Positions 37,298 through 42,618 of a stretch of 64,000 nt of DNA are shown piece by piece. This DNA is from Lysobacter niastensis (GTDB lineage Bacteria; Pseudomonadota; Gammaproteobacteria; Xanthomonadales; Xanthomonadaceae), in the NCBI RefSeq assembly GCF_015453285.1, contig NZ_JADLZT010000010.1, positions 62,001 to 126,000 of the forward strand. Direction: 5' to 3'. Below the pieces are notes generated by a model. That model ran no database searches. It was not told the DNA's origin and saw only the letters and a list, made by a program, of their open reading frames with translations. The position numbers and the translations under genes are program-made. The number at the start of each line of letters is the position of its first letter. Position 1 is the stretch's first letter.

Positions 37298-39373
37298 TCA
37301 GGCGGATTCTACCGGCCCAACCTGCTCTGCCGGCGCGAAGAAGGCCTGCACGTCCTCGATGCGCCGGGTCTTGGGAAGCGGCGGCAGCGAATTGAGGAAC
37401 ACGCTGCCATAGCTCTTGCTGCTCAGGCGCGGATCGCAGAGCACCAGAACGCCGCGGTCGCTCTCGTTGCGAATCAGCCGGCCGGCGCCCTGCTTCAGCG
37501 CGATCACCGCCTGGGGCAGTTGCTCGTCACGGAACGGGTTGCCGCCATTGCGGCGGATCGCATCGAGCCGTGCTTCGAACACCGGATCGTCCGGCGCGGC
37601 AAATGGAAGCTTGTCGATGATGACCACGCTCAGCGCCTCGCCGGCGACGTCGACGCCTTCGCGGAAGCTGGCAGCGCCGAGAAGCACGCCGTTTCCGGAG
37701 GCGCGGAAGCGTTCCAGCAACACTAGCCGCGGCGCTTCGCCCTGCACGAACAGCGGCCACGGCCCGTCGCGCAGCAACTCGGCCGCCTCGCGCAGCGCGC
37801 GATGCGAGGCGAACAGGACGAACGCGCGTCCGCCCGAGGCCTCCAGCACCGGCCGCAACTTTTCGACCATGCTTTCGTTGTAATGGCGCACGATCGGATC
37901 CGGCAATCCGCGCGGCAGGTAACACAACGCCTGCTCCTGCCAGTCGAACGGGCTGGGGACCAGCAGTGTCTGCGGCGGGTCGTCGCCCTTGAGGAACAGG
38001 CCGAGCTTGATCGCGAAGTGTTCGAAGCGGCCGCCCACGGCCAGCGTCGCCGACGTGAACACCCAGGCCGCCTGCGAACGTGCGCGGTGCTGCGCCAGGG
38101 GGCCGGCCACGTCCAGCGGCGTGCGGCTCAGGCGGAAACCGCGCGCGGTCAGTTCGTACCAGAGGACGCTGCCGTCGTCGCGCGGCTTCTTCTTCGGTGA
38201 TTCGGCATCGTCCTGCGACGAATCTCCGGCATCGACGTCAGCGAAATCCTCGGCGAACTCGTCTTGCTGATCGTGCGCCGGATCGCCGCCATCGTTGCGC
38301 CAGCGCCGCAGGCGCCCTTCGAATTCCACTGCTCGCGCGGCGCAGGCATCGAATCCCGGCGACGTCGGCGCCAGTGGCTGCAGCACCGCCTGCAACTGGC
38401 GCAGCGCGTCCTCGAGCGCATCGAACGCGTCCTCGACCGCAGGCACTTCAGCGGCGCGGCGGCGCGTGCCGCGCACCGGAAGCTCATCCATGGCCGCGCG
38501 CAACGAGCGCACGCTTTGTTCGAGCACGCGCGCCGGTTCCTGCACGGCTGCGAGTGCCGAGGATACGTTGCGGCATTCGGTCAGCGCATCGCGCGCGAGT
38601 TCCACCAGCGGCCGCGCGCTGATCGCCTCACCGAAGAACTGCGCGGCGAGGTCGGGCAACTGGTGCGCTTCGTCGACGACGAAGGTCTGCGCGCCCGGCA
38701 GGATCTCGCCGAAGCCCTCCTGCTTGAGCGCCAGGTCGGCCAGCAGCAGGTGGTGGTTGACGACGACCAGGTCGGCGGCCTGCGCGCGCTGGCGCGCCTG
38801 CACGACGAAGCAGTCGCCGAACAGCGGGCACTCGCTGCCCAGGCAGTTCTCCGCGGTGCTGGTGACCATCGGCAGCAGCGGCGATTCGTCGGGCAGCGCT
38901 TCCAGTTCGGCCAGGTCGCCCATGCGGGTGCGACCCGACCAGGCGACGATACGCTGGAACTGCGCGGCGAGTTCGCGCGTGCCGAAGCGTGGCTCGCCCT
39001 GCGCCTGGCGCATGCGGTACAGGCACAGGTAGTTCGCGCGCCCCTTCAGGAGCGCCGTCTTCAGGCCGATACCGAGCGCATCGCGCACGCGTGGCAGGTC
39101 GCGGTGGTAGAGCTGGTCCTGCAGCGCGCGCGTGCCGGTCGAGACGATCGTCTTCTTGCCCGACAGCAGCGCCGGGACGAGGTAGGCGAAGGTCTTGCCG
39201 GTGCCGGTGCCGGCTTCGGCCAGCAGCGTGCCGCGCGTGTCGACGGCGTCGCTGATCGCGGCGGCAAGGTCCTGCTGGGCTTCGCGCACGGCGAAGCCGG
39301 GAATGTTGCGGGCGAGTTCGCCGCCGTCGGCCAAGGCCGCGCGGCTGGCCTCAGCGAGGCGGCTTCCGGTCAT
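37298..39373 (-). CDS. yoaA: Iron-sulfur DNA helicase of the YoaA/DinG family
   Basis: This is an XPD-like superfamily 2 helicase of 691 residues involved in DNA repair or replication-fork processing. Walker A is GTGTGKT around K60. Four cysteines C117, C177, C182 and C188 (ENCLGSECPLFGDC) fit the Fe-S cluster. The DEAH box is at residues 234-237. C-terminal helicase motifs include SFREGVDVAGEALSVVIIDK and QGAGRLIRNESDRGVLVLCD. The length matches YoaA better than the longer exonuclease-fused DinG forms. The start codon lies 3 nt from the boundary of the structured element at 39377-39641, which may have separated it from its former upstream gene. Confidence 0.92.
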   Translation of the reverse strand: MTGSRLAEASRAALADGGELARNIPGFAVREAQQDLAAAISDAVDTRGTLLAEAGTGTGKTFAYLVPALLSGKKTIVSTGTRALQDQLYHRDLPRVRDALGIGLKTALLKGRANYLCLYRMRQAQGEPRFGTRELAAQFQRIVAWSGRTRMGDLAELEALPDESPLLPMVTSTAENCLGSECPLFGDCFVVQARQRAQAADLVVVNHHLLLADLALKQEGFGEILPGAQTFVVDEAHQLPDLAAQFFGEAISARPLVELARDALTECRNVSSALAAVQEPARVLEQSVRSLRAAMDELPVRGTRRRAAEVPAVEDAFDALEDALRQLQAVLQPLAPTSPGFDACAARAVEFEGRLRRWRNDGGDPAHDQQDEFAEDFADVDAGDSSQDDAESPKKKPRDDGSVLWYELTARGFRLSRTPLDVAGPLAQHRARSQAAWVFTSATLAVGGRFEHFAIKLGLFLKGDDPPQTLLVPSPFDWQEQALCYLPRGLPDPIVRHYNESMVEKLRPVLEASGGRAFVLFASHRALREAAELLRDGPWPLFVQGEAPRLVLLERFRASGNGVLLGAASFREGVDVAGEALSVVIIDKLPFAAPDDPVFEARLDAIRRNGGNPFRDEQLPQAVIALKQGAGRLIRNESDRGVLVLCDPRLSSKSYGSVFLNSLPPLPKTRRIEDVQAFFAPAEQVGPVESA

Positions 39374-39376
39374 GCG

Positions 39377-39641
39377 CTAGGGCCTGTTAACGCCGATGGA
39401 CCAGGCCGCGCCGGACCGGAGCGCGTGCGAGGCAAGGAAGAGTGAGGAAGTGTATGTCGATCCACGCCCGGACGCCGCATCGCGCGCGCTCAGGTCCGGC
39501 CCTTCGGGTTGCTTCTCACAGGCCGCGATGCAGCGCCGCGCGGCTTGACCTTGCAGGCAGCAAGGCGCGGCGCCACGCAACACCACCTGGCGGCCTGTGA
39601 GAAGCAACGCGGACTGGTCCATCGGCGTTAACAGGCCCTAG
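39377..39641. mobile_element. 265-bp structured element with 33-bp inverted arms (MITE-like)
   Basis: The outer arms 39377-39409 and 39609-39641 are inverted repeats of 33 bp with one mismatch; the outer 28 bp are perfect and begin CTAGGGCCTGTTAACGCC. Inside are two more hairpins: 39410-39425 with 39485-39500 (imperfect), and 39508-39526 with 39590-39608 (perfect 19 bp). The second encloses 39533-39540 with 39566-39573 and the tip 39549-39554 with 39560-39565. The whole folds as a three-way junction. There is no coding capacity. The CTAG ends fit the YTAR target duplication of IS5-family elements, so a non-autonomous insertion is the best guess. Confidence 0.7.
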
Positions 39642-40213
39642 TAACGCGGCGGCGCGGCGACGGTACAGGCGTCGCGCTTCTGCCGGGCTTGCTGGATCGC
39701 GGACTGGCGCGTGGCGGCTTCGGCCTGCGCGGCGGCGTCCTGGTTGCGCCCCGCGGGCGTCGCGGCATGGCCGCGCATGTCTATCGCCTGCGCGACGGTC
39801 TCCCAGTGCCGACGGCACAGCGGCCCGACCTGCGAGCCCAGTCCGATCGCGCGCCGTGCGAACTGCTCGGCGGCATCGGCCTGTCGCATCAGCAGCGCGA
39901 CTTCGGCGCGCTCCTGCAGCAGCGCCGGATCTTCGGCATTGATCGCCAGCGCCTGGTCGAGCGCGGCAGCGGCTTCCGCGTCCTTGCCCTCCCGTTCCAG
40001 ACGCAAGGCGTCCTCACGCAGATCCTCGACCTGCGTGTCGCGCAGCGGCCGCACATCGAGCTCGCTGGATTCCGCACCGCCGGCAGCACGCACCGCGGCC
40101 ACCGCGGCTCGTGCGTCGAACGCAGGCTGCGGTGGCGCCGGGGGCGCCGTCGTGCACGCCGCCAGCAGCGCTGCGCCGGCCAGCAGGAGCATGCGCGGGC
40201 GCATCGACGTCAC
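39638..40213 (-). CDS. Putative outer-membrane lipoprotein with TPR-like helices
   Basis: This is a 191-residue lipoprotein candidate. A signal peptide with lipobox LLAAC (cysteine near residue 20) is followed by a helical Ala/Glu-rich region with TPR-like periodicity (AEAAAALDQALAINAEDPAL). The start is taken as GTG at 40213, which overlaps the mrcB stop by 4 nt (GTGA) and has AGGA 9 nt upstream; ATG at 40204 is the alternative. Its TAG stop is formed by the CTAG edge of the structured element. Coupling to PBP1B suggests a role as a cell-wall synthesis partner, but it does not clearly look like LpoB. Confidence 0.75.
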   Translation of the reverse strand: MTSMRPRMLLLAGAALLAACTTAPPAPPQPAFDARAAVAAVRAAGGAESSELDVRPLRDTQVEDLREDALRLEREGKDAEAAAALDQALAINAEDPALLQERAEVALLMRQADAAEQFARRAIGLGSQVGPLCRRHWETVAQAIDMRGHAATPAGRNQDAAAQAEAATRQSAIQQARQKRDACTVAAPPRY

Positions 40214-42618
40214 GGCGTTTCGTCCTGCGTCGCGGGCGTCGCCGGTTGTGCATCGGCCTGCGTCTTTTCTTCCTCGCGCTTGCCGAAGCCGAACCATTCG
40301 CGCCAACCCCCACTTTCTTCCTCGGCGATCGGCTCCGGAGCCGGGCACGGCGTGTACGACGGCGCGAACCCGGCGACGAAGGCGAAGCGGCGTGCGCTGG
40401 CGCAATCGGGATCGGTGGTGTGCGTACCGGTGACCCACTGCCAATCCAGGCCCTTGTCGCCCACCTTCAGCGGCGCGGTCGGCAGGCGCGAGAAGATCGA
40501 CGACCACACGCGCATCGCACCGGTGGCGCCATACAGGCCGGTTTCCTTGTTCTGGTCGTTGCCGACCCAGATCACCGCCAGGTGATCGCCGGTCCAGCCG
40601 GCGAACCAGCTGTCGCGGCCGTCGTTGCTGGTACCGGTCTTGCCGGCCGGCGACAGGCGTCCGAGGCCGTCGCGGATCAGCTGCGTGCCGGTGCCGTTGG
40701 ACACGGCCTGCTGCAACGCGACGGTGATCAGGCGCGCGGCAATGGCATCGCCTTCCTGCGCGGGCGCCGGGGCCTTGTCATAACGATTGACCGCCTTGCC
40801 GTTGGCATCGAGCACGCCACGCACGGCGTGCAGCGGCTGGATCTCGCCGCCCGACGCGAGGAACTGGTACAGCTGCGCCATCGCGTACGGGCTCTGGTCC
40901 ACCGCACCGAGGATCAGCGCCGGATTCGGCTCGGCCTCGATGCCGGCCAGCGTGCGGATCAGCGCGGCGATGCGCTCGGGATCGACCTGCATGCCGACGC
41001 GCACCGTCGCCTGGTTGTACGACATCGCCAGCGCATCGATCAGGTGCACGCTGCCATGGCTGCGGCCGTCGGAGTTGCCTGGATTCCAGTTCTTGCCCTT
41101 GCCCAGCTGGACCGTGACCGGGGTGTCGTCGACCCAGCTCGCCAGCGAGTACTTGCCGGGCTGCGCCAGCGCCAGCAGGTACACGAACGGCTTCAGCAGC
41201 GAGCCAACCGGTCGCTGTGCCTCTACCGCGCGATTGAAGCCGTGCTCGGCGATGCTGCGGCTGCCCACCACGGCGACGACTTCGCCGTTGTGCACGTCAG
41301 TGACCACCAGACCCGCCTGCAGCGGCGGACGCGTCTTGTGGTCCAGGCTCTTCAGCGTGCGCGTCACCGCCGCTTCGGCCAGGCCCTGAGCCGACGGCGA
41401 CATGCCGCTCATCACGCTCAGGCCGGCGCCGGACAGCGCATCGGCCGGATAGTCGCGGGCGAGCTGGCGGCGAACCAGGTCGACATAGGCCGGGAAGCGG
41501 TTGGCGGCGACGCTGCCGGGCGTGCTGGTCACGCCGAGCGGCGCCTTCAGCGCACGCTGGTATTCGGCGGCGTCGATCAAGCCGGTTTCATGGAACTCGC
41601 CGAGCGCGAAGTTGCGGCGCTCCAGCGCGCGCTCGGGGTTGCGACGCGGGTCGTAATACGACGGGCCGCGCACGATGCCGACCAGCAGCGCGATCTGCTC
41701 GGTGGAGAGGTCGCGCAGGTCGCGCCCGAACCAGAACTCGGAAGCGGCGGCGACGCCGTGGATCGCCTGCGCGCCGCGCTGGCCGAGGTAGACCTGGTTG
41801 AGGTACGCCTCGAGGATCGTGCGCTTGTCGTAGCGCGCATCGATCAGCAGCGCGTAGAGGATCTCCTTGCCCTTGCGGGTGAGCGTCTGTTCGCGGCCGA
41901 TGCCGAGCAGGCCGCTGCGGGCCAGCTGCTGGGTCAGCGTACTGGCGCCCTGCTTGCGGCCGGTGGCGGTCTTGAACGCCGCGCGCACCATGCCGGTGAC
42001 GTCGATGCCGAAGTGGGAGTTGAAGTCGCGGTCCTCGACCGCCTGCAGGCCGGTCACCAGCAACTCGGGGACCTCCTCGATCCGCACCAGGCGGCGCTCT
42101 TCCTGCTTCTGGCCATACAGCGTGGCGATGCGCGCCGGGTCCAGGCGCGCCGACTTCAACGACTGGCGGCGCGTGGCCTCGCGCAGCGACGCGACCCGGC
42201 CGCCGGACAGCACGACCTCGAGCCGGCGCGCGGGCACGGCGCCGTCGACGTCGTTGAAGCCGCGGCTGGAGATCAGCCAACGCCCGCCGTTGCGGGCGTA
42301 GGTGCCCTCACGCGCGCCGTCGCCGGCGTGGTAGGCCGCGGCGTCCAGCTCGGTCTTCAGCGTGGTGGCGTCGATCGTGAGGCCCGGCGCGAGCTCCAGC
42401 GGGCGTGCGTAGACGCGTGTAGGAATCTGCCAGCGCAACTGCCCGAAGCGCTCGCTGACCTCGTGGTTCAGGTACAGCGTGTAGGGGATCAGGAATCCGA
42501 GGCCTAGACCGGCGGCGGCCAGCACCCAGGTGACCAGGCGGCGGCGCCACTGCGGGTGTTCGCTGTCTTCGCTGGTTTCGTCTTCGTCGTAATCGATTCG
42601 GGCCACGGCATGGGACAA
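40210..42618 (-). CDS. mrcB: Penicillin-binding protein 1B (bifunctional transglycosylase-transpeptidase)
   Basis: This is a class A PBP that polymerises and crosslinks peptidoglycan. The 802-residue product has a short cytoplasmic tail and a transmembrane helix at about 28-50. A UB2H-like region follows, then the GT51 domain with catalytic E195 (QAVEDRDFNSHFGID) and STLTQQLARSGLL. The transpeptidase has S473-xx-K476 (GSLLKP), S533-Y-N and K660-TG. The start is a TTG at 42618 with GAGGG about 13 nt upstream; a GTG at 42606 is possible. The stop overlaps the downstream lipoprotein gene. The C-terminus is charged. Confidence 0.94.
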   Translation of the reverse strand: MSHAVARIDYDEDETSEDSEHPQWRRRLVTWVLAAAGLGLGFLIPYTLYLNHEVSERFGQLRWQIPTRVYARPLELAPGLTIDATTLKTELDAAAYHAGDGAREGTYARNGGRWLISSRGFNDVDGAVPARRLEVVLSGGRVASLREATRRQSLKSARLDPARIATLYGQKQEERRLVRIEEVPELLVTGLQAVEDRDFNSHFGIDVTGMVRAAFKTATGRKQGASTLTQQLARSGLLGIGREQTLTRKGKEILYALLIDARYDKRTILEAYLNQVYLGQRGAQAIHGVAAASEFWFGRDLRDLSTEQIALLVGIVRGPSYYDPRRNPERALERRNFALGEFHETGLIDAAEYQRALKAPLGVTSTPGSVAANRFPAYVDLVRRQLARDYPADALSGAGLSVMSGMSPSAQGLAEAAVTRTLKSLDHKTRPPLQAGLVVTDVHNGEVVAVVGSRSIAEHGFNRAVEAQRPVGSLLKPFVYLLALAQPGKYSLASWVDDTPVTVQLGKGKNWNPGNSDGRSHGSVHLIDALAMSYNQATVRVGMQVDPERIAALIRTLAGIEAEPNPALILGAVDQSPYAMAQLYQFLASGGEIQPLHAVRGVLDANGKAVNRYDKAPAPAQEGDAIAARLITVALQQAVSNGTGTQLIRDGLGRLSPAGKTGTSNDGRDSWFAGWTGDHLAVIWVGNDQNKETGLYGATGAMRVWSSIFSRLPTAPLKVGDKGLDWQWVTGTHTTDPDCASARRFAFVAGFAPSYTPCPAPEPIAEEESGGWREWFGFGKREEEKTQADAQPATPATQDETP

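Follow-up and report, generated by a model that had tools for sequence, protein, structure and literature searches.

Between two minus-strand genes of the window, i.e., the whole 64,000-nt stretch of Lysobacter niastensis DNA analyzed here, lies a block of nested palindromes, which raises the question of what this block is and how it came to separate its neighbors. The original prediction offered two options, a non-autonomous IS5-type MITE and a structured RNA gene. Our analysis indicates that the block is very probably one copy of a non-autonomous IS5-type MITE. The first option is favored by dispersed copies whose flanks are of the CTAG type, by uninterrupted sites in the relatives of another bearer and by a group of autonomous IS5-family elements with ends of the same type, whereas the lack of an Rfam match, of an orientation preference and of a continuous distribution speaks against the second. 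Here we present the anatomy of the window copy and its relatives in other genomes, together with an account of its putative partner transposase and of the conservation of its fold.

The window copy and its flanking genes

The window copy comprises 265 nt (39377-39641) and carries CTAG on both edges (39377-39380 and 39638-39641), as predicted. Its arms are 34 nt long, 97% complementary and 197 nt apart; inverted arms had been foreseen correctly, with a size of 33 bp (28 of them perfect) that is here revised. A second inverted repeat (39505-39544 / 39572-39611; 78% over 40 nt) corresponds to hairpin B. When the minus strand was folded as RNA, a free energy of -197.2 kcal/mol was obtained vs. -119.2 (sd 5.05) for 200 dinucleotide shuffles (z -15.45; 0 of the 200 shuffles as good), and the plus strand folded as DNA gave z -14.37. 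In the predicted minus-strand fold, the outer arms enclose hairpin B, hairpin A and, between these two, a small CCC/GGG hairpin, which gives three long helices plus a central 9-base hairpin. The three-way junction of the original prediction thus stands as far as the two long enclosed hairpins are concerned, but strictly there is an extra, tiny fourth arm. The first 17 bases of the left repeat (39377-39393) are identical to the end of a plasmid-borne IS5-family element (CTAGGGCCTGTTAACGC at L318:1501). Feature coordinates are given in Table 1.

Table 1. Features of the window copy and its neighbors (window coordinates)
Feature	Position	Strand	Basis
Downstream gene, helicase (Pfam Helicase_C_2 and DEAD)	37298..39373	-	flanking frames and Pfam
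Upstream gene, lipoprotein-like by eye, true start uncertain	39638..40507	-	flanking frames
Mobile element proper, 259 bp, between the two TA copies	39380..39638	.	TA-only doubling at L128 and L129; GGGCCTG..CAGGCCC ends of the IS5-partner type
Left TA of the putatively duplicated target, within C-TA-G	39378..39379	.	sequence; duplication as in other copies
Right TA of the putatively duplicated target	39639..39640	.	sequence and flanking frames; duplication as in other copies
Left terminal inverted repeat, outer stem P1	39377..39410	+	inverted-repeat search
Right terminal inverted repeat, outer stem P1	39608..39641	-	inverted-repeat search
Hairpin A, approximate bounds	39411..39499	.	helices 5-7 of the covariation model and RNA fold
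Small hairpin CCC-TTC-GGG between hairpins A and B	39500..39508	.	sequence; helix 4 of the covariation model
Hairpin B, approximate bounds	39508..39608	.	inverted repeat; helices 2-3 of the covariation model

The downstream gene, which we take to encode a DinG-like helicase, has its ATG (39371-39373) three bases outside the left CTAG, and the TAG stop of the upstream gene (minus strand, 39638-39640) lies on the right edge of the element, where it is composed of the right TA and the element's terminal base. The element is hence the 3' end of one gene and the 5' boundary of the next, as had been proposed. Excision of one CTAG plus the interior yields TAC TAG CGC ATG on the minus strand, which places the stop of the lipoprotein-like gene three nt before the helicase start, in agreement with the original prediction. 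A Pfam search of the upstream gene (223 aa submitted) gave no match, and no promoter-like or terminator-like match of the sigma-70 and intrinsic types was found at the window copy.

The gene pair was found in 11/11 congeners searched, with a spacer of 24 nt in one of them (G001). No match to the element occurred at this junction in any of the 11 (E 1e-10, a threshold below which a decayed relic could lie). Of the empty CTAG site looked for between the two genes, the absence of the element was thus observed in all 11 congeners, whereas a base-exact empty site is unreadable because the congener spacers have diverged.

Dispersed copies, target sites and mobility

The genome of the strain itself (4.03 Mb, 15 contigs) contains four near-full copies, namely the window copy plus L002, L003 and L004, and in the genome search each of these three shows 76-77% identity to the first. 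A single copy sitting at the same place in all relatives, with no empty site anywhere, was the outcome that had been named as speaking against mobility, and it did not occur; several copies with complementary arms and CTAG-type flanks were found instead, both here and in dispersed copies elsewhere. The same genome holds five shortened relics (L005, L006, L007, L015 and L027), in which one hairpin or almost the entire interior is gone and most ends are still recognizable. By eye, hairpin A is missing from L005 and hairpin B from L006, and L007 keeps hairpin A with unrecognizable ends.

Within the genus a match at 1e-10 was obtained in 3/12 genomes, and within the bacterial family a match at 1e-8 in 59/297 genomes and 25/54 genera, just two candidates having been scored per genome. 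A deeper search of 12 chosen positive genomes gave 2 to 22 matches each, partial ones included. A scan of species genomes with a 17-base end returned at least 118 stretches; among the matches listed were Variovorax, Methylibium, Thiomonas, Malikia, Pelomonas, Pseudomonas, Stutzerimonas, Vogesella, Solimonas, Luteimonas and Lysobacter, as well as a few records of Desulfovibrio, Verrucomicrobia and Zetaproteobacteria that may be chance single ends. End pairs 255-300 bp apart numbered 42 among the stretches listed, the commonest spacing being 265-270, and shorter and longer pairs were also present. No element-sized end pair was found in 11 viral contigs with a 15-base end, and copy L002 had no match in plasmids and phages. 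A Variovorax copy had one match in plasmids, although insertion sequences are common there. Two loci, L029 (G005) and L031 (G002), appear by eye to represent one old insertion in common, with the same flanking sequence, hairpin B having been lost in G002; their ends (GGAGCCTGTC) are unlike those of the main group.

For a closer description, 120 stretches from 119 loci were reduced to 116 distinct candidates, and 88 of these, 240-310 bp long, were kept because both of their ends carried an octamer close to the consensus and no fewer than 22 of 32 arm positions were complementary. Ends and minimal pairing are hence present in this set by construction. Arm complementarity within it was 25-32 of 32, some arms being alike in little past the first eight bases. 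Most full copies measure 262-270 bp (73/88); they contain no transposase gene, and the hairpins fill the element (259 bp in the window copy). Directly before the left end there is a T in 54/88 copies, and before that a C in 50/88; directly after the right end there is an A in 63/88, followed by a G in 52/88. The flank combinations CT..AG (21 copies, the consensus), CT..AA (5), TT..AG (5) and CT..AC (3) are as expected from a two-base TA duplication inside YTAR, whereas others, such as CT..GA (3) and CT..GG (3), contain no intact TA pair.

Gene context was determined with a home-made gene caller based on codon usage. Where both neighbors were called, the genes on either side are codirectional for 57/73 copies, convergent for 10 and divergent for 6; a further 15 had no call on one side. 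A called frame overlaps the copy by more than 60 bases in 13 loci, mostly frames that start inside the copy, and in one case (L170) a called frame runs through it. The orientation of the element relative to codirectional genes is even (25 to 32, p 0.43). In 34/88 copies a flanking TAG stop lies exactly on the element edge; regarding the codirectional cases, the upstream stop is on the edge in 26/57 and the next start is at most 20 bases away in 35/57. The family accounts for a class of 260-270 bp spacers that often begin at a TAG stop codon. Special targeting of stop codons was considered and set aside: 42/198 (21%) background CTAG sites outside frames coincide with a stop (p 2e-4), a modest excess for the copies in a comparison between differing taxa, most of which CTAG preference and loss of intragenic insertions may explain.

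Mobility was assessed by using the joined flanks of the copies in genome G190 (seven whole sites and one left flank; 1650/1760 bases) as queries over 20 genomes of the same genus. At the L129 site, a single match ran straight across the junction in 19/19 relatives. At the L128 site, matches ran straight across in 12/19 and consisted of two pieces approximately 85 bp apart in 7/19, an element-sized gap being seen in 0/19. Several relatives matched across the L131 and L132 sites, and at L130, L133 and L135 the matches were one-sided or barely crossed. At base level (30 fetched loci, at most nine relatives per site), the place where the gene of the L129 copy stops reads TAG in eight relatives and TAA in one. 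The L128 site has a single TA in 9/9 relatives (ACTACG in six, ACTAGG in three), whereas the copy reads CTA-element-TAC, which corresponds to a two-base duplication. The uninterrupted sites read CTAC/CTAG at L128 and GTAG/GTAA at L129, and in comparison with them only TA is doubled at either place.

Among the congeners, the L003 site was matched straight across in 3/11 and in two pieces with short gaps in 7/11, the base-level alignment being ambiguous, and at the L002 site the matches were essentially confined to the right flank. At the place of L003, genome G010 carries some 400 bp of other repeats (L398), i.e., different interspersed repeats with GGAGCGGCG-type units and a CCGTCATTCCCGCGAAGGCGGG-like stretch in the same spacer.

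One Variovorax genome yielded 29+29 end matches (at most one mismatch). Regarding the 20 copies fetched from it, 17 differ from their consensus at no more than three positions and 18 have CT..AG flanks. Variovorax sp. MHTC-1 is among the bearers of many copies. Because uninterrupted sites occur in relatives and TA alone is doubled, and because one Variovorax genome carries a young burst, the element family is mobile.

Putative IS5-family partner and known relatives

A search of plasmids with the 34-base end of copy L002 (L002:1501-1534) led to a candidate partner, the IS5-family element L318, which shares 19 identical bases with that end (17 for the window copy). It measures 830 bp between its CTAGs, and its transposase extends over two frames, the first piece matching the Pfam domain DUF4096 and the second DDE_Tnp_1. 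The first piece is present in 13 plasmid records (1e-20). Ten loci were examined, comprising eight of the other twelve plasmid records, L318 and L319; seven of them (L318, L320-L323, L325 and L326) have YTAGGGCSTGTTMACRCTA-type left ends and, at a distance of 818-830 bp, right ends that match them, whereas no such ends were found at L324 and L327. L320 belongs to a plasmid of Polaromonas JS666. These seven resemble the MITE in their CTAG/TTAG edges and in the type of their ends, and differ from it in that they are several times the length and code for a DUF4096 and DDE_Tnp_1 transposase (domains determined for L318).

The second transposase piece was not found at E 1e-10 in 15 of 16 element-bearing genomes, several of which are drafts; the sixteenth has a relative with 39% identity and other ends. 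This relative (L319:1068-1983; Pseudomonas daroniae genome G300) is IS5-like, measures 916 bp, has CTAG edges as well as perfect CTAGGTTCTGTACGAAAAG ends, and is possibly a partner for other end types. DUF4096 was detected in 1/14 element-bearing genomes, as a fragment without matching ends in the genome of the strain itself, a control being matched in 5/14 named genomes. The fragment (L408, C13:62935-63156) belongs to an IS5-type transposase, has no recognizable ends and lies near a frame that by eye resembles a sigma factor.

No convincing autonomous copy was found among exact 15-mer end pairs at insertion-sequence length in 297 genomes (places listed for 21 positives), nor in 129 loci, nor in three genomes with one mismatch allowed, and by eye the longer end spans L195, L283, L316 and L269 contain no transposase-like frame. 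When 363 flanking proteins of 130 copies were clustered, no transposase was among the clusters of three or more, of which there were three, by eye response regulators, GGDEF proteins and an efflux-type lipoprotein. Since the partner was not found in 15 of the 16 bearers, the present mobilizer is putative, even for the young burst.

On the pattern of the family, an IS5-family two-frame DDE transposase supplied in trans would bind the 17-19 base ends, its presence perhaps being transient, e.g., from a plasmid, and would insert the element into CTAG/YTAR with doubling of TA. Intragenic insertions would mostly be lost and intergenic ones would survive, often at a TAG stop because the doubled TA and the terminal G of the element rebuild TAG, by which the gene would end cleanly. 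In the window, a tight stop-CGC-ATG junction would in this way have been turned into two genes approximately 265 bp apart. The branched fold would be kept by selection in copies that still move, either as an aid to movement or by making insertions in operons tolerable, and a copy would decay after insertion.

Elements of this kind are already known. The nearest is MITEPsy1 of Pseudomonas syringae pv. phaseolicola, a non-coding element of 100 nt labeled 'IS5?' with 18-nt ends (GGAAGGTCTGAAAAAGCC), which inserts at CTAG or YTAA; fresh insertions were trapped experimentally and a 4-nt duplication was reported (PMC3189936, available text). It is like the window element in being non-coding, in its IS5-type assignment and in its CTAG target, and unlike it in length, ends and size of the duplication, and the available text of that paper describes no branched covarying fold in it (PMC3189936). 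To judge by the title of its report, IS870 of Agrobacterium gains a stop for its own frame from a CTAG target, whereas the edge of the MITE gives a stop to host genes.

REP and REPIN elements are moved by an unlinked enzyme, and BOX elements show compensatory changes. The former are interspersed intergenic palindromes of 20-40 bp tagged by GTAG or CGTC, as described in the available text of two papers (PMC3733652, PMC2817692), and are like the window element in lying as dispersed palindromes between genes; the latter differs from them in its 259 bp, CTAG edges, TA duplication and IS5-type ends. Pneumococcal BOX elements, in the available text likewise small mobile repeats with folding transcripts, have other ends and other hosts (PMC10969869).

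A literature search by title and abstract start (ISfinder, supplements and most subscription papers being outside its scope) gave no description of this MITE family, and 13 papers containing one of four 11-12-base strings of the ends were unrelated by title. What sets this family apart from the known kind is that its structure is so deeply conserved and that it persists with no partner in sight.

Conservation of the fold and competing explanations

Covariation was examined in an alignment of 35 diverse, hand-picked copies, including the window copy, with 103 predicted pairs. Cells are paired in 96.9% vs. 76.3% (sd 0.4) in shuffled controls; as this alignment also served to derive the structure, the percentage is raised, though not to this extent. 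Changes on both sides were found in 85/103 pairs vs. 53.4 when shuffled, and the covariation score was 0.578 vs. 0.178, or at most 0.098 with partners slid by 1-3 columns. The compensatory hairpin changes that the original prediction had proposed to look for are thus present and very strong, which indicates that the fold matters in some way.

Mismatches were tallied in 80 of the 88 copies (length 255-285), related copies causing the p values to be overstated. In the outer stem they are near even (63 G-T, 50 A-C, p 0.26). In hairpin B, on the minus strand of the window, G-T exceeds A-C by 108 to 23 in the outer part and 278 to 18 in the inner part (80 to 21 and 36 to 10, respectively, without fixed-wobble columns), with no difference at the tip once fixed columns are dropped (3 to 6). 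Hairpin A has slightly more A-C (70 to 35; 54 to 35 without fixed columns, p 0.056). On the minus strand, several T-G wobbles within hairpin B hardly vary from copy to copy, a strand asymmetry that the outer stem lacks.

Such pairing could be that of a structured RNA with a host function, either an independent sRNA or a regulatory RNA inside operons, spread by chance or selection. The extent of pairing, the two-sided changes, the excess of G-T in hairpin B as in a folded single strand and the prevalence of codirectional neighbors agree with this explanation, which we nevertheless consider improbable: a search of Rfam with 18 loci (E up to 1) gave a lone match, Xoo5 (E 0.43), outside the element in L005, neither the orientation to genes nor the outer stem shows a strand preference, presence is patchy even within the genus, the apparently shared insertion has lost hairpin B in G002, and the window copy lacks promoter-like and terminator-like matches of the types searched. 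HuH transposition is not known to leave a target duplication. This, together with ends common to DDE-type IS5 elements and the two-base TA duplication, makes it highly improbable that the family is REPIN-like and mobilized in single-stranded form by a HuH (RAYT) transposase to which it is not linked, despite the long hairpin with its CTAG foot, the failure to see a linked transposase and the near absence from plasmids.

The MITE reading leaves the pairing to be accounted for, since some 100 covarying pairs are more than an ordinary MITE would need. Arm-to-arm correction, i.e., template switching in the hairpin by which one arm is rewritten from the other, would keep the palindrome near-perfect while its letters drift, with no selection. 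Such correction is known in principle for imperfect palindromes, and the near-equal mismatches of the outer stem are what a DNA-level process would give. It would, however, be expected to erase the fixed T-G pairs of hairpin B, and the stem substitutions of the young Variovorax burst (gaps excluded) are 21 one-sided and 0 two-sided, which argues against fast correction only, as burst copies differ by 1-3 positions and slow correction would leave no sign at that level. We regard arm correction as unlikely, and selection on the fold as the better reading, in line with the one-sided changes of the burst. These changes make it more probable that pairing over the long term mirrors which copies continue to proliferate. 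We therefore put forward, tentatively and with rather less than even confidence, a MITE with fold-dependent proliferation, in which selection acts, across beta- and gammaproteobacteria, on the whole branched structure, beyond the ends, in the lineage of copies that still move. Such a fold may work at the DNA level, by bringing the ends together in a single strand or a cruciform, or as RNA that renders insertions between co-transcribed genes harmless.

MITEs are usually seen as decayed transposons constrained only at their ends. Here an architecture of 103 pairs is kept while the letters turn over, and the family is spread across many beta- and gammaproteobacteria with no visible enzyme in most hosts tested. 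This raises the questions of whether folding of mobile DNA or of its transcript matters for transposition or for host tolerance, and of how a non-autonomous element persists without its transposase. If fold-dependent proliferation holds, the element could outlive a transposase met only occasionally on visiting plasmids.

An origin of hairpins A and B as inverted copies of one unit was tried and is kept only as a lead. In the genome_contigs set of 42 the signal was weak (local scores averaging 13.6 for inverted, 10.6 for direct and 9.2 for shuffled comparisons), and in the set of 88 there was no support (10.5, 10.7 and 10.4, respectively); an exact 7-mer occurs in both hairpins in 4/88 and 2/42, and a relaxed 7-mer in 21/88 and 3/42.

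Structural variants were also observed. The outer palindrome alone, 46-56 bp long, occurs in several genomes (L203:4145-4199, L178:801-846, L189:7132-7178, L283:260-315 and L304:704-758) and represents either deletion products or a minimal mobile form. Copies of approximately 290-300 bp with 25-35 additional bases are found at L154 and L155 (G164), L273 and L282; the insert in the last two adjoins the small central hairpin and contains GAGCCTGCCCCGTACTTGATACGGGGGCCG.
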